From an uncultured Fodinibius sp. (lineage in GTDB: Bacteria > Bacteroidota > Rhodothermia > Balneolales > Balneolaceae): a DNA stretch of 64,000 bases. Location: positions 62,001 through 126,000 of the forward strand of contig CAJXMW010000002.1 in NCBI GenBank assembly GCA_913056235.1, read 5' to 3'. Shown one piece after another: positions 8,572 through 33,310 of the stretch; positions within the stretch are counted from its first letter, which is position 1, and each line of letters starts with the position of its first letter. Both the position numbers and the translations under genes were made by a program. The notes beneath the pieces were generated by a model. That model saw only the letters and a program-made list of their open reading frames with translations, was not told the DNA's origin and did no database searches.

Positions 8572-8592
8572 AAAGTGTATTGTGTACAACTA
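8572..8592 (+). promoter_or_regulatory. candidate AraR operator upstream of araB
   Basis: This imperfect palindrome has half-sites AAGTGT and ACAACT. It shares the nine-mer AAGTGTATT and the following ACA..TA with the cleaner palindrome at 33290-33310 upstream of the tandem GH43 genes, read on that operon's strand. It ends at the TAtTTTTG element at 8591-8598, which resembles the Bacteroidota -7 box, so a bound repressor would cover the promoter. The function is inferred from position and sharing, not known. Confidence 0.45.
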
Positions 8593-8598
8593 TTTTTG
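8591..8598 (+). promoter_or_regulatory. possible -7 promoter element for araBDA
   Basis: TATTTTTG fits the Bacteroidota TAnnTTTG consensus and lies 60 nt before the araB start, next to the candidate AraR site. No TTTG is found at the usual distance upstream, so this remains weak. The same octamer occurs at 14573-14580, just before the ECF sigma gene. Confidence 0.3.
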
Positions 8599-8657
8599 AA
8601 GTAGGCTCTCAACAGTTTAAGTAAAGAATTGAAGCAAAGGACAGAAAGCATAAAACA

Positions 8658-10355
8658 ATGAATTCTCAGAACAAGTGTGTAATTGGTATTGATTATGGCA
8701 CCGACTCGGTACGTTCAGTTCTGGTGGATGTAGAAGGAAATCAGCTTGCCGAAGCAGTCCATAACTACAGCCGCTGGAGTGACCGGTTATATTGCGACAG
8801 CACCGAAAATAGATTTAGGCACCATCCGAAGGATTATCTCGAAGGACTTGAAGCAACACTCCAGGCAGTCTTGGATCAGGTGTCTGATGAGGTGGTCCAA
8901 CAGGTGCAGGGCATTGCCGTGGATACCACCGGATCAACGCCGGTGGCGGTGGATAAAACAGGCACACCTCTGGCCCTGATCGATGAGTATGCCGAGAATC
9001 CCAACGCTATGTTTATTCTCTGGAAAGATCATACGGCGGTGCAGGAGGCCAAGGAAATCACTGATTTGTCCAAGTCGTGGGATGGTCCCGACTACACGAA
9101 GTATGTAGGGGGGATTTATTCCTCGGAGTGGTTTTGGGCAAAGATGTTGCATACCATCCGTAACGATGAGGAAATTCGCGATGCCGCCTACTCATGGGTA
9201 GAACTGTGCGATTGGGTTCCCTACGAGCTTACGGGCAAGCAGGATGTCCACGAGATGAAACGAAGCCGCTGCGCTGCGGGACACAAGGCGCTCTGGCACG
9301 ACGAGTTTGATGGCTTGCCAAGTGAAGAGTTTTTGACGCAACTGGATCCCAAACTGGCCGGCATACGTGATCGCCTTTTTACCGAGAGTTATACCTCGGA
9401 TGTGCCGGCTGGGACTATCTCTGAGGAATGGGCCCAAAAGCTGGGTTTGACTGAAGATGTTACTATTGGCGTTGGCGCTTTTGATGCCCATATGGGCGCC
9501 GTTGGCGGCGAAATTGAGCCCTATTACTTGAGCAGGGTGATGGGGACTTCCACCTGCGATATTTTGGTGGCGCCTTACGAAGATGTGGAGGACAATTTGG
9601 TACAGGGCATTTGTGGTCAGGTCGACGGGTCAGTGATTCCCGGAATGATTGGCCTCGAAGCTGGGCAGTCGGCGTTTGGCGACGTCTATGCCTGGTTTAA
9701 GAATGTGATTTTAGAGCCTTTTGCCCAGGTTATTGAAGAATCTGACTTGCTAACCGAGGACCAGAAGCAGAAGCTAATTCAAGAAGCTGATGATAAACTT
9801 ATTGGTCAACTATCTGATCAGGCAGCGGCCATCGAAGACGTAGATACAGGAATTGTTGCCCTGGATTGGCTGAACGGTCGGCGTACCCCTGATGCGAATC
9901 AGTTGCTGAAGGGGGCTATTGAAGGTTTGGACTTAGGCAGCGATGCCGGACGTATTTTCAAAGCGCTGGCTGAAGCAACCTGTTTTGGGGCCAAAGCCAT
10001 TGTCGAGCGATTTCAGGACGAAGGTATTAAGATTAACGGCATTATTGGTCTTGGAGGAGTCGCCAAAAAATCGCCCTACATTATGCAAACGCTGGCCAAT
10101 GTCCTGGGGATGCCCATCAAGATTGCCAAGTCGGATCAGGTTTGTGCTACAGGAGCGGCGATGTTTGCTGCCACGGCGGCCGGCATTTTCGAGGATGTAT
10201 CGGAGGCCAAGAACGCAATGGGCAAAGGATTTGGGGAAATCTATAAACCGGAGTCCAGCAAAGTTGAGCGATACGAAGAGCTGTATCAGCAGTACAAGTC
10301 TTTTGGAGATATTATTGAAGAGCGAATTGAAAGCAAGTATAAGGTATCACAATGA
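8658..10355 (+). CDS. araB: ribulokinase
   Basis: This 565-residue FGGY-family kinase phosphorylates L-ribulose to L-ribulose 5-phosphate with ATP in the cytoplasm. The N-terminal phosphate-binding motif is IGIDYGTDSVRSVLVD (about residues 9-24). DTTGSTPVAVD follows near residue 92. The catalytic Asp lies in GVGAFDAHMGAVGGE. The C-terminal ATPase half contains GLGGVAKKSPYIMQ and the adenosine motif CATGAAMFAA. Length matches bacterial AraB (about 550-570). The stop overlaps the araD start by 4 nt (ATGA), so the two are translationally coupled. The upstream 143-nt region contains the candidate AraR operator. Confidence 0.97.
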   Translation: MNSQNKCVIGIDYGTDSVRSVLVDVEGNQLAEAVHNYSRWSDRLYCDSTENRFRHHPKDYLEGLEATLQAVLDQVSDEVVQQVQGIAVDTTGSTPVAVDKTGTPLALIDEYAENPNAMFILWKDHTAVQEAKEITDLSKSWDGPDYTKYVGGIYSSEWFWAKMLHTIRNDEEIRDAAYSWVELCDWVPYELTGKQDVHEMKRSRCAAGHKALWHDEFDGLPSEEFLTQLDPKLAGIRDRLFTESYTSDVPAGTISEEWAQKLGLTEDVTIGVGAFDAHMGAVGGEIEPYYLSRVMGTSTCDILVAPYEDVEDNLVQGICGQVDGSVIPGMIGLEAGQSAFGDVYAWFKNVILEPFAQVIEESDLLTEDQKQKLIQEADDKLIGQLSDQAAAIEDVDTGIVALDWLNGRRTPDANQLLKGAIEGLDLGSDAGRIFKALAEATCFGAKAIVERFQDEGIKINGIIGLGGVAKKSPYIMQTLANVLGMPIKIAKSDQVCATGAAMFAATAAGIFEDVSEAKNAMGKGFGEIYKPESSKVERYEELYQQYKSFGDIIEERIESKYKVSQ

Positions 10356-11056
10356 GTAAATTTAGAGAACTAAAAGAAGTTGCCTATCGTAGCAATATGC
10401 GGCTTCCAGAACTGGATCTGGTGCTTTTTACCTTTGGCAATGCCAGTGTGGTGGATCGCGATCGAGAGGTTTTTGCGATCAAGCCCAGCGGCGTACCCTA
10501 CGATGAGATGAGCCCGGATGATATCGTAATTGTCGATTTTGATGCCAAAGTGGTGGAGGGTAATATGCGTCCCTCATCCGATACCGAAACCCATGCCGTT
10601 TTGTACCGGGAGTGGGAGAACATAGGTGGCATCGTACACACCCATTCGACGTACGGGACCGCCTGGGCGCAGACCCAGCAGGATGTGCCCATCATGGGTA
10701 CTACCCACGCCGATCACCTCACGGTAGACATTCCCTGCACGCAGCCCATGAGTGATGAAATGATCAAAGGGGATTACGAAGAGCAAACGGGCTATCAGAT
10801 TATTGAGGCATTTAAGGATCGCGGGTTATCCTATGAGGAGGTCGAAATGATCTTGGTGGGGAATCACGCTCCTTTTACTTGGGGCAAGACGGCAGAAAAA
10901 GCAGTGTATAATAGTGCCGTGCTCGAAGAAGTCGCCAAAATGGCGTATATCTCGCTGCAGATTCGTCCCGATGCTCCGCGGTTGAAAGATACGCTTATCG
11001 AAAAGCACTGGCAACGAAAGCATGGCGATGATGCATATTATGGACAAGAAAATTAA
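10352..11056 (+). CDS. araD: L-ribulose-5-phosphate 4-epimerase
   Basis: This 234-residue class II aldolase-family zinc enzyme converts L-ribulose 5-phosphate to D-xylulose 5-phosphate, the entry point to the pentose phosphate pathway. It shows the phosphate-binding GNASVVDRD and KPSGVPYDEM segments. SSDTETH carries Asp77, and HTHST gives zinc ligands His96 and His98. The third histidine is in GNHAPFTWG. Length matches E. coli AraD (231). The ATG overlaps the araB stop by 4 nt, and araA follows after 30 nt, so the three form one operon in the order B-D-A. Confidence 0.97.
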   Translation: MSKFRELKEVAYRSNMRLPELDLVLFTFGNASVVDRDREVFAIKPSGVPYDEMSPDDIVIVDFDAKVVEGNMRPSSDTETHAVLYREWENIGGIVHTHSTYGTAWAQTQQDVPIMGTTHADHLTVDIPCTQPMSDEMIKGDYEEQTGYQIIEAFKDRGLSYEEVEMILVGNHAPFTWGKTAEKAVYNSAVLEEVAKMAYISLQIRPDAPRLKDTLIEKHWQRKHGDDAYYGQEN

Positions 11057-11086
11057 CTGAAACTTACATTTTACACATTTGATAAG

Positions 11087-12487
11087 ATGATAGAACAGCG
11101 CAAACCAAAAATCGGTCTGTTAGGCATAATGCAGGAATTGTATGACGATGATATTCCTGGGATTACTGAACATCAGGAGGAATATGCCCGGGAGGTTTGC
11201 AACCAACTGGATGATGTAGCCAACTGGTACTTTCCGAGAGCCGCCCGTAACCGTGCCGACATCGAAGAAATTTTGGGTGATTTTAACCATCAAAATCTGG
11301 ACGGCGTGATGATCGTAATGCTGACCTATGGACCGGCGATGAGAACGGTACGCGCCTTGCAAAAGAATAATCTGCCGTTGTTGCTGGCTAATATTCAGCC
11401 GGTGCCCGAAGTGACTACAGACTGGGATATGGATGATTTGACCTATAATCAGGGCATCCACGGCGCGCAGGATATGGCTAATGCAATGCTACGTACTATA
11501 GGAGATAATTTTGAAGTCATTTCAGCCGACTGGAAAAGTGATGAGTTTAAAGAATATGTCGGTGACTGGGCCAGTGCTGCACAGACTGCCTCAGCTTTGA
11601 AAGAGATGAAGATTGCCTCGATTGGGAAAATGCACGGCATGGGCGATACGCTTTCTGACGAAGCGGCTTTTACCCGTATTGTTGGTCCCGAAGTGAATCG
11701 GGAGTATATCGGCCAGGTGTTCCGCAATATGGAGACTATTTCCACTGAAGAGGTTGAACAGCAGATGGCGGTAGAACAGGAGCGCTTTGATGTGGATGAT
11801 GATATGCCGGACAAGAATTTCCGTTATGCCGTGCGTATGCACCTTGGATTCAAAAAGTTTTTAGAGGATGGTGAATACGACGGTTTTTCGGCCCATTTCG
11901 ATACGTTTAAGGGTGATGGACGTTTTGATCAGATCAACATGCTGGCGGCCTCGAACCTGATGGCCGAAGGATATGGCTATGCCGCAGAAGGGGATACTAA
12001 CACGGCTAGCATGGTTGCGGCGGGACATGTTCTTGACGGCGATGCCCACTTTACCGAAATGTACGCCATGGATTTCAAACGCGAATCAATGTTGATGAGT
12101 CACATGGGCGAAGGTAACTGGAAGGTGGCACGTAACGATGAGCCGATACGTCTGGCAAACCGTGAGCTCGGTATTGGCGACTTGAACAACCCACCCACCA
12201 CGGTTTTCCGTGTTGAGCCCGGGCCTGCTACAATTGTCTCGCTGGTGCATCTCGTAGGCGAAGAGTTCCGGCTGGTGGTGGCTCAGGGTGAAGTCCTGGA
12301 TTCCCAAAAATATCCAACAATCGAGATGCCGTACTTCCATTTTAAACCTGACAGTGGATTGCGCGAATGCAATGACGCGTGGCTTAAAGCCGGCGGTACG
12401 CATCACCAAACACTGCTACAGGGTGATCAGCGACGGAAATGGAAAATGCTTTGCCAAATGCTCAACATCGAATATCTAGAAGTGTGA
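11087..12487 (+). CDS. araA: L-arabinose isomerase, short divergent type
   Basis: This 466-residue protein interconverts L-arabinose and L-ribulose. It is about 35 residues shorter than E. coli AraA (500), mostly at the two ends, and the N-terminal half is divergent. The metal site is conserved: Glu in GYGYAAEGDT, Glu in FTEMYAMDF, His in LMSHMGEG and His in KAGGTHHQTL, equivalent to E. coli Glu306, Glu333, His350 and His450. Context with araB and araD supports the assignment over the related L-fucose isomerases. It is the last gene of the araBDA operon; the SSS symporter follows after 140 nt. Confidence 0.93.
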   Translation: MIEQRKPKIGLLGIMQELYDDDIPGITEHQEEYAREVCNQLDDVANWYFPRAARNRADIEEILGDFNHQNLDGVMIVMLTYGPAMRTVRALQKNNLPLLLANIQPVPEVTTDWDMDDLTYNQGIHGAQDMANAMLRTIGDNFEVISADWKSDEFKEYVGDWASAAQTASALKEMKIASIGKMHGMGDTLSDEAAFTRIVGPEVNREYIGQVFRNMETISTEEVEQQMAVEQERFDVDDDMPDKNFRYAVRMHLGFKKFLEDGEYDGFSAHFDTFKGDGRFDQINMLAASNLMAEGYGYAAEGDTNTASMVAAGHVLDGDAHFTEMYAMDFKRESMLMSHMGEGNWKVARNDEPIRLANRELGIGDLNNPPTTVFRVEPGPATIVSLVHLVGEEFRLVVAQGEVLDSQKYPTIEMPYFHFKPDSGLRECNDAWLKAGGTHHQTLLQGDQRRKWKMLCQMLNIEYLEV

Positions 12488-12627: not shown

Positions 12628-14376
12628 ATGGGAACGTTAGCGGTAATTGACTGGATCGTAATCCTCATATACTTTTTGCTTATCGCCGGGTTGGCTTGGT
12701 GGGTAATTAATCAAAAGACTGATACTACAGCTGATTATTTTCTAGCGGGTCGTCACCTGGGCTGGATTATCGTCGGTACATCTATTTTTGCATCCAATAT
12801 TGGGTCGGAACACCTGGTTGGACTTACCGGAACCGGGGCCACGGATGGGGTGGCTATGGCACATTACGAGTTGCATGCTTGGTGTCTGTTGATATTAGGT
12901 TGGATTATGCTGCCATTTTATATCCGTTCCCGCGTATTCACCATGCCTGAGTTTCTGGAGAAGCGATTTTCACCGCTGGCGCGAACTGTATTGTCAGGAG
13001 TCTCGCTGCTGGCATATGTGCTTACGAAGATTGCAGTCGGTATTTTTGCCGGGGGTATTGTTTTTAGTGTACTCATGCCCGAAGTTTCATTTTTAGGGAT
13101 GAATAGTTTTTGGATTGGGTCGATACTCGTAATTGTTTTTACGGGGCTTTATACTGCATTAGGTGGCTTGCGGGCCGTTGCTTATACCGAGGCCGTTCAG
13201 ACATTGGTCCTTATTTTCGGTTCCGTGATGGTGTTGTATTACGGACTAGATGCCATTGGCGGCTGGGATCGCCTGGTGCAAGTAGCTGGTCCCGAAATGT
13301 TTGATCTCTGGAAACCCATTGTGCCCGAAGGTATGAAAGCGACATGGGCGCCGGTAATGGGGGAGGATCAAATGGCGTGGTATTTTAACGGTAACTATCC
13401 ATGGCTGGGGATGCTGTTTGCAGCCCCCATTGTTGGCCTATGGTACTGGACAACTGATCAGTATATCGTGCAGCGTGCCCTGGGAGCGCCCAACGAAAAG
13501 CAGGGACGTCGTGGAACGATTGCTGCTGCTTTCCTTAAGCTGTTGCCGGTATTTCTATTTATTATCCCGGGAATTATTGCTTTTGCCATTGCAAAGTCAG
13601 GCGAAGTGGCGGTAATTCAGCAAGAGCTTATTGGTCCCAGTGGGGAAATTATCAATCAAAATGCACAGGCTTCCTTTCCCTTGCTGGTAGCTCATATCTT
13701 GCCGGTAGGTGTGCGTGGTATTGTGGTTGCCGGATTACTGGCAGCCCTTATGAGTTCGCTGGCTGGAGTCTTTAATGCTTCTTCTACACTCTTTACTATG
13801 GACTTTTACCGTAAGTTCAAGCCCGAGGCTTCAGAAGAACACCTGGTATGGATGGGGCGTTTGGCGACCGTTGTAATGGTACTTATTGGGTTATTGTGGA
13901 TACCGGTAATTCAGGGAAGTCGTGGGTTATACGACTACTTGCAGGGCGTACAAGCTTACTTGGCGCCCCCAATTTTTGTGGTGTTTTTCTTCGGTATTTT
14001 CTTCAAAAGACTGAATAAACAAGGCGCACTGTCAGCTTTATTTGTGGGATTATTCCTCGGCGTCTTCCGACTGGCCATTGACACACCCGTTATGCTGGGA
14101 GAATTCACCTACACCGAAGGCACATTTTTCTGGTTTATCAATAATGTGTTCTTCCAGTATTACAGCTTGTTTATTTTTCTTGTATGCATTGGTGTGATGT
14201 TTGGTGTCAGCTATATGACAGCACCGCCCAGCTATGAGAAGATTTCAGGTCTTACCTACGGTACGTTAACCGAACAAGACAAGGCAGAGTCACGCGCAAG
14301 CTGGAATTGGGTTGACGTGACGCTTTCCATTTTACTGGTCGCGATTATTGGATTTATATATATTTATTTCAGTTAA
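12628..14376 (+). CDS. sodium/solute symporter (SSS/SLC5 family), probable arabinose importer
   Basis: This 582-residue integral membrane protein has about 13-14 hydrophobic helices spread over its whole length. The family signature regions are visible: DYFLAGRHLGW after helix 1, IFASNIGSEHLVGL in helix 2, and LYTALGGLRAVAYTE in the middle. SSS proteins of this SGLT-like group import sugars with Na+. Its position between araA and a terminator suggests L-arabinose uptake across the inner membrane; that substrate is inference. An AGGAG ribosome-binding site stands just before the ATG. The 140-nt gap after araA shows no clear terminator, so it could be cotranscribed with araBDA or have its own promoter. 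Confidence 0.9.
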   Translation: MGTLAVIDWIVILIYFLLIAGLAWWVINQKTDTTADYFLAGRHLGWIIVGTSIFASNIGSEHLVGLTGTGATDGVAMAHYELHAWCLLILGWIMLPFYIRSRVFTMPEFLEKRFSPLARTVLSGVSLLAYVLTKIAVGIFAGGIVFSVLMPEVSFLGMNSFWIGSILVIVFTGLYTALGGLRAVAYTEAVQTLVLIFGSVMVLYYGLDAIGGWDRLVQVAGPEMFDLWKPIVPEGMKATWAPVMGEDQMAWYFNGNYPWLGMLFAAPIVGLWYWTTDQYIVQRALGAPNEKQGRRGTIAAAFLKLLPVFLFIIPGIIAFAIAKSGEVAVIQQELIGPSGEIINQNAQASFPLLVAHILPVGVRGIVVAGLLAALMSSLAGVFNASSTLFTMDFYRKFKPEASEEHLVWMGRLATVVMVLIGLLWIPVIQGSRGLYDYLQGVQAYLAPPIFVVFFFGIFFKRLNKQGALSALFVGLFLGVFRLAIDTPVMLGEFTYTEGTFFWFINNVFFQYYSLFIFLVCIGVMFGVSYMTAPPSYEKISGLTYGTLTEQDKAESRASWNWVDVTLSILLVAIIGFIYIYFS

Positions 14377-14597: not shown

Positions 14598-15218
14598 ATG
14601 GACTCTAACGTTACAAATAAAGAACATTCAGTCGACAAAGAAGAGGCGTGGCAGCAATTTGTCGATGGAGACGAGTCCTGTTTCAAGCATGTATTCCAAG
14701 CCTACTTTGAAGATCTCTATGGATACGGGATTAAGTTGAGCCGGCGCCCTGAGCTGGTTAGAGACTGTATCCAAGAACTCTTCAGAAGTATTTGGGAGCG
14801 AAGAGAAAGTCTCCTCCACATCGAGTCGCCAAATGTTTATTTATTTGTTTCACTGCGCCGAAAAATCCTCAAGAAGGTTAAGAGACGCAGGAAAACTAAC
14901 GGTGCTCTTGATAACATTTATGAAACCGGTTACATACAGTTTGCTAAAGAAGATCTGATCATCAGAGATGAAGTAAAACTTCAACAAAAGGAGGAAATAA
15001 GTGCTGCTCTTAACCAGCTATCCGATCGGCAAAAAGAAGTGGTTTACCTGCATTTCTACAATGGCATGAGCTATGGTGAAATCGAGAGCATCTTGTCGAT
15101 CAACAGGCAATCGGTTCGCAATCACATGTATCGGGCTATGGAGACGTTGCGATCTTTGCTGGATACAAAGATTATGAAGCTGGTTGTGTCCTTCCTGATC
15201 ATCTTTTTTATCAGCTAG
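14598..15218 (+). CDS. ECF RNA polymerase sigma factor of the SusC/FecR type
   Basis: This 206-residue sigma-70 family protein has sigma region 2 at about residues 25-95 (AYFEDLYGYGIKLSRR, CIQELFRSIWERRE) and region 4 at about 135-190 (LNQLSDRQKEVVYLHFYNGMS onward, with the helix-turn-helix YGEIESILSINRQSVRNH). A charged linker rich in Lys/Arg lies between them. The protein ends in a hydrophobic tail (MKLVVSFLIIFFIS) that could touch the membrane. It stands before a FecR anti-sigma gene and an STN-containing SusC, the standard trans-envelope signalling trio. It should activate the SusCD operon when SusC binds its glycan. Confidence 0.92.
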   Translation: MDSNVTNKEHSVDKEEAWQQFVDGDESCFKHVFQAYFEDLYGYGIKLSRRPELVRDCIQELFRSIWERRESLLHIESPNVYLFVSLRRKILKKVKRRRKTNGALDNIYETGYIQFAKEDLIIRDEVKLQQKEEISAALNQLSDRQKEVVYLHFYNGMSYGEIESILSINRQSVRNHMYRAMETLRSLLDTKIMKLVVSFLIIFFIS

Positions 15219-15459
15219 TAGTTTACTTTTGGTCAAGTCGTTTTGCTAACGGTTGTATTACTATGCACAGAAACGCGGAATTTGGGGCACTCTTTTTCAG
15301 ATGTGACATCCTTGTTGCTGATAAAAAGATGTTAATGTGCCATTTTAAGCGTTTATAGGCCTTTCTAAAGAAGTTTAGATAATTTGAGTATGCTGGGCGG
15401 TTTCGCCACTCTCCTATACTGAACTTCAGAAATTATTATCACTAAAAAAGTCAAGCTAA
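15219..15459. other. 240-nt intergenic region before fecR, no gene seen
   Basis: The stretch is AT-rich and has no convincing open frame, tRNA or terminator. It probably holds the promoter recognised by the ECF sigma factor for the fecR-susC-susD unit, but no match to a known ECF motif can be named from sequence alone. Confidence 0.4.
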
Positions 15460-16536
15460 GTGAACGAAAACGAATATACCGTTCAAGATCTTATACACAA
15501 CCAGTCATTTCGTTGTATGGTTAAAGGTACGGCCAGTGCTGAAGAGGTCGAACGATGGAATGTCTGGATTGAGAAGAGCGCACAAAACAGAGCAAAAGCA
15601 AAGGAAGCTATTGCCGAAATAGCTGGGTTTACATTCAGCGATCCCGACACGCCCGATGTTGAACAGGAATGGAAGCGTTTACAAAAAGGGGTTTCGCAAA
15701 AAAAGGAGAGTGAGTCTCAATCCGCCGCCCACCGGAGATCAAGTACCACAGAGACGTTGACTTGGATTTATCGCATAGCGGCAATTTTATTGTTGGGAGC
15801 TACGATTGGAGTGGGCTTTTACGTCTATTCACCTACGGATACTACCTCTACACGTGTTGAAAAGATTACCGAAGAAAAAACGGTACGTACGGGTAACAAC
15901 GAGCATAAGACCGTTACCTTTTCTGATGATTCCAGAATTGTACTCAATAGTAACTCAACGGTAACCTACACCTTGGGCGGAGAATCAGGTCAGACCATTA
16001 AGGTGGTAATGGAAGGTGAAGCTTTCTTCGAAGCCGAGAGCTCATCAGAAAATCAGGAGCCCGTTTTTGCGATACGTACTCCTGATGGGCTGATTAAAGA
16101 TATTGGGACCAAGTTTTTAGTAACCGTCGAACGGGATCGGTCTCGCGTGGTACTGCAAGAAGGGCGTGTTCAGGTAAGTACCGATGGCCAGACCAAGACT
16201 GATAAAAATATTACTGTCGCAGATGGAGAGATGGTTGAGTTTAATAGTACTGAAGTTTTAACAGAGAAGGAGGTTAACACCACCTTCTTTACTTCTTGGG
16301 CAACAGGCTTTATGCAGTTTGACCAAACAAATATTCAAGAGTTTGCCGGTTTTGTGGAAGACAGATTCGATGTTCGGGTAAAAGTTGTAGACCCGGCATT
16401 AGCCAACATCAAACTTGATGGGGGTATTTATTTTCGATCACTGGAAGAGTTGGTTCGTTCCGTTTCTGAAGTAGCTGATATACCTGTATATCAGTCCAGA
16501 GATCGCGAGACAGTGTTTATCGGAAATAAGCAGTAA
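15460..16536 (+). CDS. FecR-type anti-sigma factor
   Basis: This 358-residue inner-membrane protein begins at a GTG; no ATG precedes the conserved N-terminus in frame. Residues 1-100 are cytoplasmic and should bind the sigma factor. A single transmembrane helix spans about 103-123 (IYRIAAILLLGATIGVGFYV). The periplasmic FecR domain follows (KTVTFSDDSRIVLNSNSTVTY, then EGEAFFEAE and VLQEGRVQVS). The last ~80 residues (FDQTNIQEFAGFVEDRFDV onward) are the DUF4974/STN-like C-terminal domain. It transmits the signal from the SusC STN domain to the sigma factor encoded just upstream. susC follows after about 48 nt. Confidence 0.92.
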   Translation: MNENEYTVQDLIHNQSFRCMVKGTASAEEVERWNVWIEKSAQNRAKAKEAIAEIAGFTFSDPDTPDVEQEWKRLQKGVSQKKESESQSAAHRRSSTTETLTWIYRIAAILLLGATIGVGFYVYSPTDTTSTRVEKITEEKTVRTGNNEHKTVTFSDDSRIVLNSNSTVTYTLGGESGQTIKVVMEGEAFFEAESSSENQEPVFAIRTPDGLIKDIGTKFLVTVERDRSRVVLQEGRVQVSTDGQTKTDKNITVADGEMVEFNSTEVLTEKEVNTTFFTSWATGFMQFDQTNIQEFAGFVEDRFDVRVKVVDPALANIKLDGGIYFRSLEELVRSVSEVADIPVYQSRDRETVFIGNKQ

Positions 16537-16584
16537 ATAATAACGCTCATTATAATCTGAAGCCTTTAAGGGAATGTGAATGAG

Positions 16585-20007: not shown

Positions 20008-20043
20008 ATCAGACAAATTTCAACTACTCAATAATTGGTGATA

Positions 20044-21564: not shown

Positions 21565-21680
21565 TTGGCAATCTTAATCGCTATCCCGGTGGTCATACAT
21601 ATCATATTTAAGAATTATGATGTCAATATGATGTGGAAGACCATCGGTATATAAATCTAAACTGAAAGATATTTACCATT

Positions 21681-22595: not shown

Positions 22596-22607
22596 AATTG
22601 ATATCCC

Positions 22608-22650
22608 GAGCCCAGTAGCAGTGTAATGCTGGCTACCGGGCTCATTTTAA
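22608..22650 (+). terminator. hairpin after the PKD lipoprotein gene
   Basis: GAGCCCaGTAGC pairs with GCTACcGGGCTC around a short loop and is followed by ATTTTAAG. It is a likely full or partial terminator between the susCD part and the enzyme genes of the locus. Confidence 0.7.
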
Positions 22651-22689
22651 GTGCTTAATGTAGGTCAGCGATCTTTTTTGTGAGATGAT

Positions 22690-24162: not shown

Positions 24163-24188
24163 TTTTAGAACGGTTTAACATTTTTGCT

Positions 24189-25052: not shown

Positions 25053-25098
25053 GGCAGATGATAGCCACCTTTTATCTTTGAACCTAATAACTGTTATT

Positions 25099-26667
25099 AT
25101 GAAAAAACTGCTTGGTCTACTGTCGATTGTTGTCCTATTAGTTCCCGCAGCTCATGCCCAGTTGAATGCTGAAGTGCCACAAGTCGAAGTTGAACAAGGT
25201 AAGTTGCAAGGCGTTGACGATTCCGGCGTTAAGATTTTTAAGGGAATTCCTTTCGCCCAGCCACCTACTGGTAACCTTCGATGGAAAGCACCGCAGCCGG
25301 CCAAAGATTGGGAGGGCGTACGACAAGCCAACCAATTTGGTCCCCGTTGCATGCAGCGTAGCATTTTCGGCGATATGGTATTTCGTTCTGATGGGATGAG
25401 CGAAGATTGCCTGTATCTGAATGTATGGACTCCCGCGAAATCCCAGGATGCCGATCTGCCGGTACTGGTCTATTTTTATGGCGGCGGATTTATCGCAGGC
25501 GATGGGACGGAGCCACGATATGAGGGCGAAAGTATGGCCCGTAATAAAGGCATCGTAACCATTACAATTAATTATAGGCTGGGTGTATTTGGATTTTTGT
25601 CCCACCCCGAATTGACGGCTGAATCATCCAATAGTGCTTCTGGCAACTACGGCCTACTTGATCAGGCACAAGCCCTTAAGTGGGTGAAAGAAAACGTCGT
25701 AGCCTTTGGCGGGGATCCGGACAAGATTACGATTGCTGGTGAGTCGGCGGGTTCTATTTCAGTAAGTGCGTTGATGGCTTCGCCGCTGTCGCGGGATCTG
25801 TTTCGTGGCGCTATTGGAGAAAGTGGATCGATCTTGGGTGCGCTGTCGGCCACGTCTCTGGATCAAGGGGAAAAGGTGGGCGAAAAGTTTGCTTCTATTC
25901 TTGGAGCCCAATCGCTGTCTGAGATGAGGAAACTTTCAGCCGATAGCCTGCTGGCCACCACAGCACAGCAGAATGTGCCACGGTTTCCGATCACCATAGA
26001 CGGGCACTTCTTACCGAAATCCCCTTACAAGATTTTTGAAAACGGCCAGCAGTCACAGGTACCGCTCTTGGTGGGATGGAATTCAGGTGAATCCAACTAC
26101 CAGGCCATTTTGCGCGGCCAGAAACCGACACCACAAAATTACAAAAATGCCGTGCGCCAGCTATATGATGACAAGGCCGATCAAATTTTGAGCTATTATC
26201 CTGCATCCAACAAAAAAGAAGTTATCGAATCGGCAACCGCATTGGCCAGTGATCGGTTTATCGCTTTTAGTACGTGGAAGTGGAGTAACATGCAGAGCAA
26301 GACCAGCGATCAGCCGGTTTATCGTTATTATTACAGCCATCCGCGCCCGGCAGCTAAAGCATCGGATGATACGTCCCGTGCAGAATTTGCTGTACACTCC
26401 GCAGAGATTGAATACGCGATGGGCAACCTGCCAACCAATAAGGTCTATAAATGGACACCAGCGGATTACAAGGTTTCCAATATTATGCAGAACTATTTTG
26501 CCCAGTTTATTAAAACTGGTGATCCCAATGGCTTGGGGGTGCCTACCTGGGTACCGTTGACACAGGGTAATACCCCGCATTTTATGCAGATTGATGTAAA
26601 CACGCGCTTGCGTCGCGTGCAGCATCGTGAACGCTATCAGTTTCTGGATCAACTTTCATCGAATTAA
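25099..26667 (+). CDS. secreted type B carboxylesterase
   Basis: I start at the ATG at 25099 (MKKLLGLLSIVVLLVPAAHAQ); an earlier ATG at 25030 overlaps the GH16 gene and spoils the signal peptide. The 522-residue protein has the carboxylesterase fold: GIPFAQPPTGNLRWKAPQP near the N-terminus, oxyanion-hole motif YFYGGGF, EDCLYLNVWTP, and nucleophile Ser216 in AGESAGS. The catalytic His is probably in FAVHSAEIEYAMG. It is exported without an obvious lipobox. In this locus it might remove acyl groups (acetyl, feruloyl) from the polysaccharide, but the family is broad and the substrate is not determined by sequence. Confidence 0.88.
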   Translation: MKKLLGLLSIVVLLVPAAHAQLNAEVPQVEVEQGKLQGVDDSGVKIFKGIPFAQPPTGNLRWKAPQPAKDWEGVRQANQFGPRCMQRSIFGDMVFRSDGMSEDCLYLNVWTPAKSQDADLPVLVYFYGGGFIAGDGTEPRYEGESMARNKGIVTITINYRLGVFGFLSHPELTAESSNSASGNYGLLDQAQALKWVKENVVAFGGDPDKITIAGESAGSISVSALMASPLSRDLFRGAIGESGSILGALSATSLDQGEKVGEKFASILGAQSLSEMRKLSADSLLATTAQQNVPRFPITIDGHFLPKSPYKIFENGQQSQVPLLVGWNSGESNYQAILRGQKPTPQNYKNAVRQLYDDKADQILSYYPASNKKEVIESATALASDRFIAFSTWKWSNMQSKTSDQPVYRYYYSHPRPAAKASDDTSRAEFAVHSAEIEYAMGNLPTNKVYKWTPADYKVSNIMQNYFAQFIKTGDPNGLGVPTWVPLTQGNTPHFMQIDVNTRLRRVQHRERYQFLDQLSSN

Positions 26668-26697
26668 TTTTCTTAATCCAAGAATCCCATTTGCAGT

Positions 26698-27969
26698 ATG
26701 AAGCAGAGAAAACTAAATGTCCACTCAGTTACTAAGGGCTTAGCAGCTTGTATTGTAGTAGCGCTATGGCTGTTGCCAATGCTGGGGAAGGCACAGGATT
26801 CTTCGGTATCTACGGACGATTTTGTGACGGTTCGGGGAGATGAGCTAATCAAACCAAATGGGGATACGCTTTTTCTAAAAGGCATTGGGTTGGGCAACTG
26901 GCTGCTGCCCGAGGGATATATGTGGAAATTTGACAAGGCAACTTCACCACGTCAGATTAACGAGGTTATCTCTCAGTTGATCGGACCGGCCGCAGCGCGT
27001 GACTTCTGGGAGCAGTATCGCGATAACTATATTACCCAAGAGGATATCGCCTATATCAAAGATATTGGGATGAATAGTGCGCGCGTAGCTATCGATTACC
27101 GTATTCTGACACCCGAACGCCATCCCGATGTGTGGTTGGAGTCAGGTTTCAAGCGTCTGGATCAATTAGTTAAGTGGTGCAAACAGGAGGGACTGTATCT
27201 TATTCTGGATATGCATGCGGCCCCCGGTGGACAGACGGGCGAAAATATTGACAATGGATGGGGATATCCTTTCTTGTTCAAAAGTGAGGCTAGCCAGCAG
27301 CGCGTTATTGAAATATGGAAAAAGTTGGCCCACCGCTATAAGGATGAACCCACTGTATTGGGATACGATCTTTTGAATGAGGCTATACCCACATTTGAAG
27401 GATATGACAAACTGAATAAGTATTTGGTGCCGTTGTACAAACAAATCACTGAAGCCATACGTGTTGTTGATCCCAATCATATCATTATTGTTGAAGGAGC
27501 GCAGTGGTCAACAAATTTTGATGTTTTCGGGAAGCCGTTTGCCGACAATATGATCTACTCTTTTCATAAGTACTGGATGCCTCCTGAGCAGGAGCAAATT
27601 CAGGCCTATGTGGATTTCCGGAAGAAATATAATGTACCACTCTGGCTTGGCGAATCCGGCGAAAACGATAACAAATGGATCGCGAGCTTTCGCACTTTAC
27701 TGGAGAAAAATGACATTGGCTGGTCGTTTTGGCCGTACAAGAAAATGGCCGACAGTAGCGGGGTGATATCTATCCCCAAGCCCGAAGGCTGGGATAAGAT
27801 TGTGACTTTTCAGAAGCACTGGGGATCGGATTTTGAAACGCTCCGAAAATATCGGCCGAAGATGGAAGAAAGCAAAGCGATTTTAAATCAGTTTTTGCAA
27901 AATATGAAGTTTGAAAATAGCCGTCCTAATCCCGGCTATATCAAAGCAATGGGATTAACACCAAAATAG
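26698..27969 (+). CDS. GH5 glycosidase (beta-glucanase), secreted
   Basis: This 423-residue protein has an N-terminal signal peptide with a rather long n-region, ending near GKAQ. The TIM barrel shows LKGIGLGNWLLPEGY at the start, LILDMHAAPGGQ, acid/base Glu228 in DLLNEAIP, HKYW, and nucleophile Glu319 in LWLGESGEN. The GLGNWL opening resembles exo-beta-1,3-glucanase and beta-1,6-glucanase relatives of GH5. It probably trims laminarin-type oligosaccharides in the periplasm. The gene lies 30 nt after the esterase and 54 nt before GH3 on the same strand. Confidence 0.88.
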   Translation: MKQRKLNVHSVTKGLAACIVVALWLLPMLGKAQDSSVSTDDFVTVRGDELIKPNGDTLFLKGIGLGNWLLPEGYMWKFDKATSPRQINEVISQLIGPAAARDFWEQYRDNYITQEDIAYIKDIGMNSARVAIDYRILTPERHPDVWLESGFKRLDQLVKWCKQEGLYLILDMHAAPGGQTGENIDNGWGYPFLFKSEASQQRVIEIWKKLAHRYKDEPTVLGYDLLNEAIPTFEGYDKLNKYLVPLYKQITEAIRVVDPNHIIIVEGAQWSTNFDVFGKPFADNMIYSFHKYWMPPEQEQIQAYVDFRKKYNVPLWLGESGENDNKWIASFRTLLEKNDIGWSFWPYKKMADSSGVISIPKPEGWDKIVTFQKHWGSDFETLRKYRPKMEESKAILNQFLQNMKFENSRPNPGYIKAMGLTPK

Positions 27970-28023
27970 AAATCAGACCATTAACCTTTCAGTAAGACAA
28001 CTGTCCAATTTAAACCTATCATT

Positions 28024-30405
28024 ATGAAGCAGTATATCAGTACGATAGTTAAAAGAGCATTTTGTGTCCTCATTTTCGTCGCTATGGGGACTTCAACCGT
28101 AAAAGCTCAAGAACAGCAATCTGCTGGAGGTGCCGATCTTTTCTCTAAAGCTGTTGAGCAACGTGCTTCTCAGCTTTTGGAGAAAATGACGCTGGAAGAG
28201 AAAGTAGGTCAGATGACACAAATTACGCTGGATGTAATTGGCAAAGGGGAATCCCGGTACGCCAGCAAGCGTCCCCTGGAGCTGGATGAAAAGGCCCTGG
28301 AAAAAGCAGTTGTGGATCATCATGTTGGCTCGGTCTTGAATACGGCCAACAACCGGGCGCTGTCACGTCAGAAATGGTACCAGGTGATCAATAAAATCCA
28401 GCAGGTGGCAACCAAAGATAGCCGTTTGGGGATTCCTATTCTTTATGGCATCGATTCTATTCACGGAGCAACTTACACGGCCGGTGCTACCATGTTTCCG
28501 CAGCAAATAGGGCAGGCTGCAAGTCGCAATCGTGATCTAGTGCGCAAAGCTGCTGAAATTACTGCTTATGAAACCCGCGGCAGTAGCATTCCATGGACCT
28601 TTTCACCAGTGCTTGATTTAGGGGATGATCCGCGATTTCCACGACTTTTTGAAACCTTTGGCGCCGACCCGTACCTGATTTCCGAGTTAGGAAAGGAGAT
28701 GGTCGACGGTTATGAAGGGGCACAAAATAATGTTGGTGACGCGGAGCACGTAGCATCGACAATGAAACACTACCTGGGATACCAAACGCCGGCATCCGGC
28801 AAAGATCGTACACCATCAAATATTTCTGATCATGCAATGCACGAATACCATTTGCCATCCTTTAAAGCTGCCGTGGAAGCTGGTGCTCATACGGTGATGG
28901 TGAATAGTGGTATTATCAATGGTGTGCCCATGCATGCCAACAAGGAGCTCTTAACTGGCTTGTTAAAAGAGCAACTGGGATTTGAAGGATTGGTTGTTAC
29001 CGACTGGGCTGATATTGAGAATCTTCATAACCGTGATAAGGTGGCTACAAGCAATAAAGAAGCGATTAAGATAGCTATCAATGCGGGTATCGATATGTCA
29101 ATGGTGCCGTATCAATATGAGGCGTTTACCAATGGACTGATCGAGCTCGTCAAGGAAGGGGAAGTCCCGGAATCTCGTATTAATGATGCTGTGAGTCGCA
29201 TCCTGAAGGTGAAGATGGCACTGAATCTCTTTGAACGGCCGGTAACAAATTATGAAGATTATCCTCAATTTGGTAGCGACCAGTTTGAGCAGGCGTCATA
29301 CGATATGGCAGCGGAGTCTATCACCCTGCTGAAAAACAAAGATGAGATTCTGCCGCTGTCGAAGCAGACCAAAGTACTGGTAACGGGTCCCAATGCTAAC
29401 AGCATGCGCACGCTAAACGGCGCGTGGACCTATTCTTGGCAGGGAGACAAGGTCGAGGAGTTTGCCGGAGCGTACAATACGATTTTAGAAGCGATCAAGA
29501 ATGCTATTGGCGATCAAAACGTGCGTTATGTCCCCGGCGTACAGTACGATAACGATGGCAATTATTATGCGCAGCATTTCGAGCAGCTTGATGAGGCGGT
29601 GAGGCAGGCCAAGGAGGCAAATGTTGTTGTAATGTGTCTGGGTGAAAATTCGAAGACTGAAACTCCAGGTAATCTCAGCGACCTCTACATTTCTAGCAAG
29701 CAGACTGAGCTGGCTCAAAAAGTGGCCGCAACGGGCACTCCTGTTGTATTGGTACTTAATGAAGGGCGCCCCCGGATTATCAGTAAGTTTGAGCAGCAAA
29801 TGGACGGTATTATTCAGATTTATCAGCCGGGTAATTTCGGCGGAGATGCGCTGGCTGATATCCTTTTTGGGGAGATAAATCCCTCCGGCAAGTTGCCGTA
29901 CAATTATCCTCGCTACCCGAACTCGTTGGTGGGATACATACATAAACCCTCCGAAGATCAGGAAAGCACGGAAGGAGTCTACAACTACTCTGCCAGCTAC
30001 AATCCTCAGTTCGAGTTTGGTGATGGGTTGAGTTACACGACCTTCAGCTACGATAACTTTTCCATTAGCGATGATACGCTGCGTAGTGGAGGACAGCTGA
30101 CGGTTTCAATTGAGGTAACCAACAGTGGGGACCGATCTGGTAAGGAGACGGTCGAACTCTATACTTCTGATTTATATGCTTCGAGCGTAACGCCGGATGT
30201 AAAACGGCTGCGGCGTTTCCGGAAGATCAAGTTGAAGCCGGGCGAAAGTAAAAATGTGGAATTTCAGCTTGCGCCATCGGATTTGGCCTATGCCGACCGA
30301 AACGGCAAAATGATCATCGAGAATGGCAGTTTTAAGGTCATGATCGAAGACAAGGCGAAGCAGTTCGAGTATCTCGGTTCCGGGGATGTTACAGAAACAA
30401 ACTGA
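28024..30405 (+). CDS. GH3 beta-glucosidase, periplasmic
   Basis: This 793-residue protein has a signal peptide (MKQYISTIVKRAFCVLIFVAMGTSTVKAQ, cleaved after KAQ). The GH3 barrel begins with LEKMTLEEKVGQMTQ and contains PILYGIDSIHGA, KHYLGYQ and nucleophile Asp327 in VVTDWADIE. The alpha/beta C-terminal domain starts near residue 430 (SITLLKNKDEILPLSK), with GENSKTETPGNLSDL supplying the likely acid/base region. A fibronectin-III-like domain closes the protein (TVSIEVTNSGDRSGKETVELY). It would release glucose from beta-glucan oligosaccharides imported by SusCD. It is the last + strand gene of the locus and converges with the HAD gene 11 nt further on. Confidence 0.95.
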   Translation: MKQYISTIVKRAFCVLIFVAMGTSTVKAQEQQSAGGADLFSKAVEQRASQLLEKMTLEEKVGQMTQITLDVIGKGESRYASKRPLELDEKALEKAVVDHHVGSVLNTANNRALSRQKWYQVINKIQQVATKDSRLGIPILYGIDSIHGATYTAGATMFPQQIGQAASRNRDLVRKAAEITAYETRGSSIPWTFSPVLDLGDDPRFPRLFETFGADPYLISELGKEMVDGYEGAQNNVGDAEHVASTMKHYLGYQTPASGKDRTPSNISDHAMHEYHLPSFKAAVEAGAHTVMVNSGIINGVPMHANKELLTGLLKEQLGFEGLVVTDWADIENLHNRDKVATSNKEAIKIAINAGIDMSMVPYQYEAFTNGLIELVKEGEVPESRINDAVSRILKVKMALNLFERPVTNYEDYPQFGSDQFEQASYDMAAESITLLKNKDEILPLSKQTKVLVTGPNANSMRTLNGAWTYSWQGDKVEEFAGAYNTILEAIKNAIGDQNVRYVPGVQYDNDGNYYAQHFEQLDEAVRQAKEANVVVMCLGENSKTETPGNLSDLYISSKQTELAQKVAATGTPVVLVLNEGRPRIISKFEQQMDGIIQIYQPGNFGGDALADILFGEINPSGKLPYNYPRYPNSLVGYIHKPSEDQESTEGVYNYSASYNPQFEFGDGLSYTTFSYDNFSISDDTLRSGGQLTVSIEVTNSGDRSGKETVELYTSDLYASSVTPDVKRLRRFRKIKLKPGESKNVEFQLAPSDLAYADRNGKMIIENGSFKVMIEDKAKQFEYLGSGDVTETN

Positions 30406-30416: not shown

Positions 30417-31076
30417 TTAGGCTGATGCCAAGGAAAGTACTTCGGAGAGGGATAGCCCCTTGAAATCACTGATCATCAGTGAGCAGGGGGGCAGCTCTTC
30501 TTCGCTATGCGTAGTCGTTACGCCAATTACCTTGGCGCCGGCGTTGCGTCCGGCCTCGACACCTGAAACCGAATCCTCAAAAACCAAACATTGCTCGGGC
30601 TTCTTGTTCAGTGCTTCGGATGTTTTGAGATACACTTCCGGATCGGGTTTGCCCTTGGTGACATGCGAGGAGTCGAGCACCGTTTGGAAATATTTTTCTA
30701 TTGAAAGCCGAGATAAAATATAATCAGCATTTTCGCGGGGTGCCGACGTAGCCACTGCCATTGGGATATCCTGCTCGCTCAGCGTTTCGAGAAACTGGTG
30801 GATCCCATCGACAATATTATCCTCGGGTGTAAACATATCCCGGAACATCTGTTCCTTTTCATCGGCCAGCTCTTTGAGTTTATCAGCACTGATATCCCCA
30901 AAAAGTTCGGGAATCCATTCTTTATTTGTGCGGCCATAGAGACGATTTTCAAGGAACGTCTGGGAGACATCCTGGTTATGTTTTTTGCAAAAAATTTGGA
31001 TGGCTTTTTTGTGTGCGGGGTTGCTGTGGACGATCACGCCGTCCATATCAAAAATTATACCTGGGGTGAAAATCAT
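30417..31076 (-). CDS. HAD phosphatase/phosphomutase of the beta-phosphoglucomutase type
   Basis: This 219-residue cytoplasmic protein has all HAD motifs: DMDGVIVHSNP (Asp10 nucleophile and Asp12 acid/base), the TSAPR segment of motif II, the Lys in KGKPDPEVY (motif III), and FEDSVSGVEAGRNAGA (motif IV). The four-helix cap lies between residues 15 and 85. The family includes beta-phosphoglucomutase and sugar-phosphate phosphatases. Beside a beta-glucan and arabinan locus a role in hexose phosphate conversion or detoxification is plausible, but the substrate cannot be read from sequence. Two GH43 genes are encoded upstream on the same strand. Confidence 0.85.
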   Translation of the reverse strand: MIFTPGIIFDMDGVIVHSNPAHKKAIQIFCKKHNQDVSQTFLENRLYGRTNKEWIPELFGDISADKLKELADEKEQMFRDMFTPEDNIVDGIHQFLETLSEQDIPMAVATSAPRENADYILSRLSIEKYFQTVLDSSHVTKGKPDPEVYLKTSEALNKKPEQCLVFEDSVSGVEAGRNAGAKVIGVTTTHSEEELPPCSLMISDFKGLSLSEVLSLASA

Positions 31077-31158
31077 CTTGCTAGATTTGAAAAATTGGAG
31101 GATAAATTAGCCACAGATAATAACCAATGCACTGCAATACCAAAAGTTCCATCGCAGG

Positions 31159-32232
31159 TTACAGCGAAATGCTGGGCCATCCGTCATTCCAATTTATTTT
31201 TCTGATAACCAGCTTGGCTTTACCTTCATCAGATTTGTCATAGCCGTGGAAGATCAGGTAGTCGGTTCCATCGAAAGTATATGCTGCCTGATGACCTACG
31301 GCCGCCCAGTCTTCATTTTCTGATGCGATGAGCGTGCCACCGCCGTGAATCATCTTTTCACCGGACTTATCAAGATAGGGACCGGTAATATTTTTCGAGC
31401 GGCCTACCTTTATTTTGTAACTACTGTCCAGGCCGCGGCAACAGCGATCCATCGATACAAACAGGTAGTAATAATTGTTTTTCTTGAAGATGAAAGGTGC
31501 TTCCACGGCTCCATATTCCATGTTTTTAGCTGCTTCGAGCATGTCTTCCGAATAGAGTTTCTCGTAATCCAACTCGGGATTGGCAGCATCACCGGCGTCG
31601 CGCTCATCCAGCTTCCAGTTACGATACCGCTTGGCAAGGGTATGCCATTGTTGTGGCGATCGGGCGATTTCGGTGAGGTTATCCTGCAGCTTCACAATTT
31701 TGAGCCCCCGCCAGAAGGAGCCGAATGTCAGCCAGGGTGTACCGTTATCATCAAACGCCAGGTTGGGGTCGATTGCATTCCACATATCGCGGCCTGGTAC
31801 CGATTGTACCACGGGACCGTGATCCGTCCATTCGTAATTTGGGGCATCGGGATCAAGCGTTTCGTTGGTTGCCACACCAATGGCCGAATTATTTCGTCCA
31901 AACTGTGAGACTGAATAGTACAGGTAAAATGTACCGTTGTGTTCGACGATATCCGGAGCCCACTCGACATTGTCGAAGTTAGGGACAAGATCGAACGTCC
32001 ATTCTGGAGCCTCGTCAAAAACAGGCTTCTCAGCCGTCCACTCTTTCATATCCGGTGACGACCAAATGGCGATGCCGTTACCCGTGGCAAAAGCATAGTA
32101 GCTGCCGTCGTGCTTAATCATAACAGGGTCATGAATCGGGATTTGATCATGTTCAAACTGGGCCAGCGCCGAACTTACAGTTAGGCACAAAAGTAGCGTT
32201 GCAGTAAACACAAAAGTGGTTAGTGACTTCAT
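31159..32232 (-). CDS. GH43 endo-arabinanase-type enzyme, secreted (copy 1)
   Basis: This 357-residue protein has a cleavable signal peptide ending SSALAQ and a single five-bladed GH43 domain. The catalytic carboxylates are the Asp in IHDPVMI, the Asp in AIDPNLAF and the Glu in VEAPFIF. It is clearly paralogous to the gene upstream at 32254-33276 over the full length. It differs by about 25 extra residues (NPELDYEKLYSEDMLEAAK region) just before the acid Glu loop, which could reshape the substrate cleft. It lacks the C-terminal beta domain found in the GH43 at 1387. The two genes are 21 nt apart and share an operon. Confidence 0.9.
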   Translation of the reverse strand: MKSLTTFVFTATLLLCLTVSSALAQFEHDQIPIHDPVMIKHDGSYYAFATGNGIAIWSSPDMKEWTAEKPVFDEAPEWTFDLVPNFDNVEWAPDIVEHNGTFYLYYSVSQFGRNNSAIGVATNETLDPDAPNYEWTDHGPVVQSVPGRDMWNAIDPNLAFDDNGTPWLTFGSFWRGLKIVKLQDNLTEIARSPQQWHTLAKRYRNWKLDERDAGDAANPELDYEKLYSEDMLEAAKNMEYGAVEAPFIFKKNNYYYLFVSMDRCCRGLDSSYKIKVGRSKNITGPYLDKSGEKMIHGGGTLIASENEDWAAVGHQAAYTFDGTDYLIFHGYDKSDEGKAKLVIRKINWNDGWPSISL

Positions 32233-32253
32233 AATCTGTTTATTGATGATTAG

Positions 32254-33276
32254 TTAGGATTCATCCAGCGAAATAGTGGGCCAACCATTTTGCCAGGTAA
32301 TTTTTCGGATGATGAGCTTCGAATCGCCTTCGTCAGAATTGTCATAGCCATGGAAAATGAGGTAATCGATGCCGTCAAAAGTATAGACTGCCTGATGCCC
32401 GACAGCTACCCATTCATCATTGCCTTTGGCCACCAGGCTACCGCCGCCGTGGATCATCTTTTCGTTTTCTTTATCGATGTAGGGACCGGTAATATCTTTC
32501 GATCGTCCGACTACAATTTTGTACGTACTTTCTTTGCCCGAGCAGCACTGATCCCAAGATGCAAACAGATAGTAGTATCCATTCTTTTTAAAGATAAAGG
32601 GTGCTTCGATATCACTGGACATGCTGTTACCGGCGTCGCGGGGCTCCATTTTCCAGTCACGATGTCGTTTGGCAATGGTGTGCCAGGTCTGTGGATTTTC
32701 AGCGATCTCAATTAAGTTATCCTTCAGCCTCACAAGTTTTAGCCCTAGCCAGTACGAGCCAAACGAAAGCCATGGCGTTCCGTTTTCGTCGAATGTCAGA
32801 TTAGGATCGATGGCATTCCAAAGGTCACGGCCGGGCACCGATTGCACCACGGGACCATGATCAGTCCATTGGTAATTAGAATCATCGGGATCAAGCGTTT
32901 TGTTGGTAGCCACTCCGATAGCTGAGTTGTTTTTACCAAACTCGGAGACTGAGTAATACAGGTAGTAGGTATCTTCGTGCTTCGTGATATCGGGTGCCCA
33001 TTCCACGTTGTTAAAATCCGGGACGACCTCCGAGGTCCATTCGGGCGCTTTTGCAAAAACAGGTTTCTGACGAGACCATTTTTCCATATCCGTGGATGAT
33101 TTAACAGAAATGCCCCACCCCGTGGCAAACACGTAATAGGTGCTGTCCTGCTTGATCATTACCGGGTCATGGATGTCTGTACTACTGCGTTGGGCCAACG
33201 CTGAAGAGGCAAAGGCCATTAGCAAAAACAGTCCAACTAATTTTAGCATTATCGATCTTAACCCTGAAGATACCAT
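32254..33276 (-). CDS. GH43 endo-arabinanase-type enzyme, secreted (copy 2)
   Basis: This 340-residue protein is the tandem paralogue of the downstream GH43. The signal peptide ends ASSALAQ. A second in-frame ATG at 33249 (MLKLVGLFLLMAF) would also give a good signal, and no clear ribosome-binding site decides between them. Catalytic residues are the Asp in IHDPVMI, the Asp in AIDPNLTF and the Glu in IEAPFIF. A paired CC (WDQCCSG) is shared with its neighbour (MDRCCRG). It is the first gene of a minus-strand unit (GH43-GH43-HAD) whose upstream region carries the palindrome at 33290-33310. Confidence 0.9.
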   Translation of the reverse strand: MVSSGLRSIMLKLVGLFLLMAFASSALAQRSSTDIHDPVMIKQDSTYYVFATGWGISVKSSTDMEKWSRQKPVFAKAPEWTSEVVPDFNNVEWAPDITKHEDTYYLYYSVSEFGKNNSAIGVATNKTLDPDDSNYQWTDHGPVVQSVPGRDLWNAIDPNLTFDENGTPWLSFGSYWLGLKLVRLKDNLIEIAENPQTWHTIAKRHRDWKMEPRDAGNSMSSDIEAPFIFKKNGYYYLFASWDQCCSGKESTYKIVVGRSKDITGPYIDKENEKMIHGGGSLVAKGNDEWVAVGHQAVYTFDGIDYLIFHGYDNSDEGDSKLIIRKITWQNGWPTISLDES

Positions 33277-33289
33277 AAGTTAATATCTC

Positions 33290-33310
33290 TAAGTGTTATA
33301 AATACACTTA
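33290..33310 (-). promoter_or_regulatory. candidate AraR operator upstream of the GH43 pair
   Basis: A perfect inverted repeat, TAAGTGT and ACACTTA separated by 7 nt, lies 14 nt before the first GH43 start. On the operon strand it shares AAGTGTATT and the ACA..TA right part with the araB site at 8572-8592 (15 of 21 positions identical). The assignment to AraR is inference from sharing between two arabinose transcription units. Confidence 0.5.

Follow-up and report, generated by a model that had tools for sequence, protein, structure and literature searches.

Here, we describe two putative operators of the arabinose repressor AraR in DNA of an uncultured Fodinibius sp. The analysed stretch of 64,000 nucleotides (GenBank assembly GCA_913056235.1, contig CAJXMW010000002.1, positions 62,001 to 126,000) is called the window throughout. 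One site precedes araB and the other one precedes a tandem pair of genes from glycoside hydrolase (GH) family 43. With a probability of about 0.9, judged from the sequence, both are operators of the AraR protein encoded at positions 7804-8514 and control arabinose genes. A first-pass annotation of this DNA had already suggested AraR binding, and the comparative analysis supports it. The motif recurs in front of the corresponding genes of related genomes, perfect copies go along with the presence of AraR, and its layout equals that of the operators published for BtAraR of Bacteroides thetaiotaomicron (PMC4666351). The mechanism as such is already known but the lineage is new.

The two sites and the regulator

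The araB-side site comprises positions 8572-8592 of the plus strand (AAAGTGTATTGTGTACAACTA) and the GH43-side site positions 33290-33310 of the minus strand (TAAGTGTATTTATAACACTTA). A second reading of the window sequence confirmed these coordinates of the first-pass annotation as well as the presence of AAGTGTATT in both sites. The recount gave 14 identical positions out of 21 instead of the 15 reported there. The core common to both sites is AAGTGT-N7-ACACTT and delimits a weak candidate operator upstream of araB (8573-8591, plus strand, AAGTGTATTGTGTACAACT, two mismatches) and a strong one upstream of the GH43 pair (33291-33309, minus strand, AAGTGTATTTATAACACTT). The latter is indeed the perfect TAAGTGT-N7-ACACTTA dyad that had been described, with 16 of 21 letters (8 of 10 pairs) self-complementary. 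The araB site had been presented as sharing this palindrome, which is not correct in the strict sense: only 10 of 21 letters (5 of 10 pairs) are self-complementary, and a good half AAGTGT is combined with the degenerate half ACAACT that contains both mismatches. Also the formulation of the motif as AAGTGTATT-N-ACA had to be revised. The gap before ACA has four positions, giving AAGTGTATT-N4-ACA, and the letters ATT that follow AAGTGT fall in the variable spacer. The proposed distance of 14 nucleotides (nt) between the GH43 site and the start codon holds for the ATG at 33276 and becomes 41 nt if the second ATG at 33249 is used. This second ATG opens an apparent signal peptide, and in the other seven strong relatives homology to this first GH43 open reading frame (ORF) begins at residues 13-21.

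The sequence TAnnTTTG is the -7 box of Bacteroidetes. The TATTTTTG box that had been noted next to the araB site is present at 8592-8599, but it is not conserved beside other sites: within 80 nt TAnnTTTG occurs at 2 of 43 sites on the sense strand versus 8 of 43 on the opposite strand, which leaves a function as -7 box unsupported. A sigma-70 scan of positions 8515-8700 revealed no promoter.

The gene adjoining the first site (araR, 7804-8514, plus strand) encodes a repressor of 236 amino acids of the NrtR/NUDIX type, as was correctly recognized before. Its three Pfam domains NUDIX, NrtR_WHD and AraR_C (PF00293, PF21906 and PF19368) all exceed the cut-off, and its best relative of solved structure is BtAraR (5bs6, E-value 1.8e-78, residues 4-220). 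It is the sole match of its kind in its own genome at E ≤ 1e-3 and is located among arabinose catabolic and arabinoside-degrading genes, as seen from Pfam and locus comparison. Roles of individual residues were taken from the structural work on BtAraR (PMC4666351). The arabinose-pocket residues R34, R86 and H131 are kept in the window protein and in all 17 aligned relatives from the family. In a wider Bacteroidota set H131 is replaced by Q in 27 of 74 proteins; this set was obtained from the best 80 of 295 scan matches after removal of six Balneolota loci and consists heavily of Mucilaginibacter. From the six DNA contacts that were termed absolutely conserved (K179, R180, N181, K184, K204 and R205; PMC4666351) four are identical in the window protein, namely K179, R180, N181 and K204. 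The exchanges K184R and R205K are found in this protein and in all 17 relatives, and R184 and K205 occur in 20 and 26 of the 74 Bacteroidota proteins, respectively.

Occurrence of the motif in the genome

The whole assembly (3,972,939 bp in 9 contigs) was searched for this motif. It contains two perfect copies of AAGTGT-N7-ACACTT versus about 0.32 expected from base composition, and both have the extended form TAAGTGT-N7-ACACTTA for which about 0.024 would be expected. One copy is the GH43 site (C2:95291-95309). The other one (C2:54738-54756) is not part of the window; it precedes by 75 nt the susC gene that opens the arabinose locus. Six more sites differ by one mismatch. Five of them lie within ORFs and were rejected as operators (window 54093-54111, C1:825792, C1:1321733, C3:130127 and C7:85711), and the single intergenic one (C1:800379) lies 28 nt upstream of a further GH43 gene on another contig. 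Thus, among the eight sites with at most one mismatch the three intergenic ones precede susC, the GH43 pair and another GH43 gene. An exact copy of AAGTGTATT-N4-ACA just beyond the window end (C2:126155) was rejected as well; it has the left half only and falls in an apparent small coding frame. C2:241873 and C2:396920 show one mismatch to this half motif, and neither comes within one mismatch of the full dyad.

A weight matrix derived from 46 sites in other genomes, which had been selected with the same core, was applied to the window and the preceding 12 kb (about 76 kb together). The three best scores belong to the GH43 site (28.7), the susC site (26.9) and the araB site (14.4), followed by a match in coding DNA (7.7). 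The published sites of B. thetaiotaomicron reach 12.1, 17.2 and 24.5 on the same matrix, so the araB site is within their range.

Conservation in related genomes

SusC-like genes near araR show a perfect site in all eight upstream regions from seven genomes (these regions were chosen for a seen site), at a distance of 72-83 nt from the start in seven of them and of 118 nt in G065. Upstream of araB a site with at most two mismatches is present in 11 of 12 regions including our own, 10-82 nt before the gene, and shuffling of the 146-nt stretch that harbours the araB site yielded p 0.004. Eight strong relatives of the first GH43 gene, counting our own, were compared: G000, G009, G012 and G014 carry a perfect upstream site, and G016 a version with one mismatch. 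In the last genome the GH43 block is located at C22:148 kb and araR at 394 kb, i.e., about 245 kb apart, and the site is nevertheless kept. A less similar GH43 gene of G021 is also preceded by a perfect site. Eight other GH43 loci of the genus served as contrast (L216 and L217 left out): seven are without a site of at most two mismatches, and L211 has one with two mismatches.

The family comparison covered 92 genomes. As AraR-bearing we counted those with a match of at least 68% identity, including the partial G025 and the frame-split G067. Perfect sites are present in 14 of 20 AraR-bearing versus 11 of 72 other genomes (Fisher p 5.7e-6) and, within the genus, in 7 of 7 versus 0 of 5 (p 0.0013); both p values are optimistic because the genomes are related by descent. 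In total there are 45 perfect matches (32 in AraR-bearing genomes, 13 in others) versus 23 on one strand for the reversed pattern (6 and 17). Whether a perfect site lies in an ORF was decided mechanically, counting frames from 80 amino acids upwards and allowing 30 nt of grace at their starts. All 30 examined out of the 32 sites in AraR-bearing genomes lie outside ORFs (G021:C13 and G046:C373 left out), the GH43 site of G009 being within the first 30 nt of an ORF and one G046 site touching a gene end. In genomes without AraR, 9 of 11 examined out of 13 sites fall inside ORFs, one locus per genome being considered. Beyond the family, 34 of the 74 Bacteroidota araR loci carry a site with at most one mismatch. 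Five control patterns, among them the unchanged half-sites spaced by 6 or 8 positions, were present in 1-4 of the 74 loci.

Relation to known regulators

The AraR of Bacillus subtilis shares the name and the inducer with the protein described here but belongs to the GntR family and is unrelated. The closest known system is that of BtAraR (BT0354; PDB 5bs6, 5dd4, 5ddg and 5deq; PMC4666351). Both proteins are repressors with a NUDIX-like and a winged-helix domain and have the pocket residues R34, R86 and H131 in common. In all three gel-shift fragments of BtAraR GTGT-N7-ACAC is found, in BT0365 even AAGTGT-N7-ACACTT (PMC4666351). This core within a 21-bp motif is matched perfectly by the GH43 and susC sites and with two mismatches by the araB site. 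L-arabinose relieves DNA binding of BtAraR in vitro, and its published regulon comprises ara operons as well as GH51, GH43, GH97 and SusC/SusD genes (PMC4666351). The putative targets are alike, namely araA, araB, araD, the arabinose symporter, mutarotase, GH51, GH43, GH97 and SusC/SusD genes. In contrast with the Bacteroides system, the host belongs to Balneolota, the base contacts carry K184R and R205K, sites are single where the Bacteroides ara operon has a tandem pair, a GH127 gene and the tandem GH43-HAD block are further putative targets, and araB has a weak putative operator of its own. XylR (BT0791), the xylose regulator of Bacteroides, belongs to the same NrtR family as the window protein (PMC4666351, PMC3878776). 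It has 33% identity to BtAraR and is linked to xylose genes (PMC4666351), whereas the window AraR is found among arabinose genes. A search of papers with an open licence, without subscription papers and RegPrecise, revealed none on AraR in Fodinibius and, judged by title, none on AraR in Balneola.

Contrary evidence and alternative explanations

Several findings weigh against the assignment of both sites to AraR. On the side of the protein, besides the two conservative exchanges at base contacts of the Bacteroides structure, two van der Waals contacts differ (S163P and A208Y), and V92, located at both the pocket and the dimer interface, is T in the window protein. On the side of the sites, 6 of 20 AraR-bearing genomes have no perfect copy, no site with one mismatch or less is present in the araR stretches of G050 (close to a contig end) and G025, and the same is true for 40 of the 74 Bacteroidota loci. 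A close orthologue of susC exists in G009 and G014 only (76 and 75%), the other site-bearing SusC genes being 31-51% alike. The GH43 genes of G075, which is AraR-bearing, and of G044, which has no AraR match, are without a site of at most two mismatches in the stretch examined. In G065 none with up to three mismatches was found in the nearest 201 nt of the GH43 gene, and the nearest perfect copy is 467 nt away beside a divergent araB. Finally, the sites have no conserved promoter element next to them.

It is unlikely that the GH43 site alone is an AraR operator and the araB site a chance resemblance, with araBDA being controlled by read-through from the susC-araR unit. This idea draws on the fact that only one half of the araB site is good and that sites with up to two mismatches show no excess in the genome (108 versus 163 for the reversed pattern), which likewise counts against the AraR assignment. 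Because of this lack of excess the sequence of the araB site alone gives no genome-wide significance, and its support comes from position, conservation and matrix rank. G017 has no counterpart with up to three mismatches in the 77 nt upstream of its araB. In G068, G061, G050 and G024, araB follows araR after 4-24 nt with no site in between; further upstream G068 and G024 have a one-mismatch site in front of their epimerase-GH51-araR-araB run and G061 has one in front of GH51, and none was found on the short contig of G050. Read-through as the sole control of araBDA is difficult to reconcile with the third rank of the araB site on a matrix derived from other species, with its score inside the published range, and with the 11 of 12 upstream regions and the shuffling result.

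Even less probable is that the motif belongs to another regulator, such as a Crp-like protein, a second NrtR protein of the XylR kind or a hybrid two-component system, that shares the targets of AraR by coincidence. Other regulators do co-control arabinose operons in Bacteroides (PMC4666351; PMC3878776), and G006 and G062 contain a perfect site outside ORFs yet no AraR match, a finding that also speaks against AraR itself. On the other hand, perfect sites track AraR over the 92 genomes, no second AraR-like protein was detected in this genome at the threshold given above, and the layout is that of the BtAraR gel-shift fragments (PMC4666351) and unlike wwwTATGTTnTAnAACATAwww, which is quoted as second motif of a putative global sugar regulator (PMC3878776). 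A mere chance similarity of two AT-rich intergenic stretches has a negligible probability. One-mismatch copies of AAGTGTATT-N4-ACA are only mildly more frequent in the genome than those of the reversed pattern (25 versus 16), but conservation at orthologous genes and the genome-wide, cross-genome and control-pattern results contradict chance. Binding of both sites by AraR is the preferred reading.

Gene content and the intervening beta-glucan locus

The genes within the window were assigned by Pfam. The run preceding araR starts outside the window with susC, susD and GH127 and continues on the plus strand at 31-7750 with a GH51-type gene, GH43, GH97, an aldose epimerase and a second GH51-type gene (Alpha-L-AF_C). 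Downstream of araR follow the genes of arabinose catabolism araB (8658-10355), araD (10352-11056) and araA (11087-12487) on the same strand (FGGY_N/C, Aldolase_II, Arabinose_Iso_C and others). The cluster ends with a sodium:solute symporter (SSF, 12628-14376, plus strand), a likely arabinose importer that also follows araA in G009, G012, G014, G011, G016 and G017. Next comes a locus of beta-glucan type (14598-30405, plus strand) with genes for a sigma factor, FecR, SusC, SusD, PKD, GH30, GH16, an esterase, GH5-type and GH3 proteins. On the minus strand the tandem GH43 genes (32254-33276 and 31159-32232, together 31159-33276; Glyco_hydro_43 with E-values of 2.7e-49 and 2.4e-54) are followed by a HAD-type phosphatase (HAD_2, 30417-31076), which holds the same place in G009, G012, G014 and G016.

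In G009, G012 and G014 the GH43-GH43-HAD block is found directly after the symporter gene of the ara cluster with a gap of about 90-115 bp between SSF and HAD genes. The beta-glucan locus is absent there, and since this applies to the same place in three close relatives it most likely represents a later insertion in the present lineage. Its GH30 protein, the only product of the 16-kb locus that was compared, was not matched at E ≤ 1e-60 by any of the 11 other genus members searched. The symporter edge may be a favoured place for insertion since in G016 the symporter gene adjoins another, different sigma-FecR-SusC set. The beta-glucan locus is outside the AraR set. This modifies the view of a distant GH43 pair that was brought under arabinose control: the shared control is supported, as the pair counts among the regular arabinose genes, but the distance is nothing special when in three close relatives the pair forms the next block after the ara cluster.

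The lone GH43 gene on the other contig (C1:800426-801427; L168:3427-4431) is a predicted further member of the regulon, based on its one-mismatch site. G009 and G014 have this site too, likewise with an AATTGT half; no close orthologue of the gene was found in the other nine genomes of the genus.

Some further features of these regions deserve mention. Between the GH43 operator and a photolyase-like gene the window contains two small ORFs (33503-33969), the first one with a signal-peptide-like start, and this gap amounts to 819 nt in the window versus 95-177 nt in G009, G012 and G014. Several relatives have a second AraR-like site with one mismatch that precedes the susC operator by about 98-281 nt (L174:13862, L178:12790, L179:5639, L182:6058 and 11539) and G012 shows two perfect sites 50 nt apart; in our genome no second site with up to three mismatches exists within 450 nt before susC. 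Near the susC unit of G011, G016 and G012 a ThuA/DUF7133-type gene is located (L179:2188-5196, L182:11854-14853 and L175:1-1429), the two complete proteins of which contain a cupredoxin domain. Each of these genes is preceded by its own AraR-like site with one mismatch (39-56 nt upstream), which suggests that AraR may control a non-glycosidase gene as well.

Proposed regulon and its significance

The best reading of the sequence is that at least four units of this genome are under AraR repression that arabinose would relieve. By analogy with the solved Bacteroides protein, an AraR dimer would occupy AAGTGT-N7-ACACTT just upstream of its targets in the absence of arabinose and block transcription, and L-arabinose entering the NUDIX-like pocket would swing the DNA-binding domains and release the repressor. 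The putative operators lie 10 to 118 nt before start codons. The first unit would be the susC-susD-GH127-GH51-GH43-GH97-epimerase-GH51-araR run, the second one araBDA under its weak site, perhaps together with the symporter, the third one the tandem GH43-HAD block and the fourth one the single GH43 gene on the other contig. The GH43 enzymes presumably act on arabinose-containing chains.

A more tentative idea, which we consider possible though rather doubtful, is that the AraR regulon of the genus is graded by operator strength. Near-perfect operators would serve the susC unit and the GH43 pair and araB would be kept weak, so that catabolism is partly on or the first to respond and the secreted degradation machinery comes into play at higher arabinose only. 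The GH43 module would carry its own operator and stay in the regulon wherever it is moved, be it directly adjacent, 19 kb beyond the symporter gene or about 245 kb away from araR. The araB sites of the genus score 12.0-22.6, lower than the susC and GH43 sites (18.4-26.8; Mann-Whitney p 0.003, 6 versus 13) and lower than araB sites from other genera (21.2-23.4; p 0.017, 6 versus 5); in neither case are the sites independent by descent, and G017, having no araB site, is left out.

What emerges is the proposed arabinose regulon of a Fodinibius-like bacterium of Balneolota, outside the Bacteroides and Prevotella species in which the regulator was described. It very probably extends a switch of gut Bacteroides to a salt-loving relative. 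The case is clear-cut but not surprising, and the motif is sufficiently defined to identify one more GH43 gene on a different contig. A regulon of this kind can persist when a polysaccharide locus comes to lie in its midst. The AraR switch and its operator appear to occur well beyond gut bacteria, with the known mechanism unchanged.

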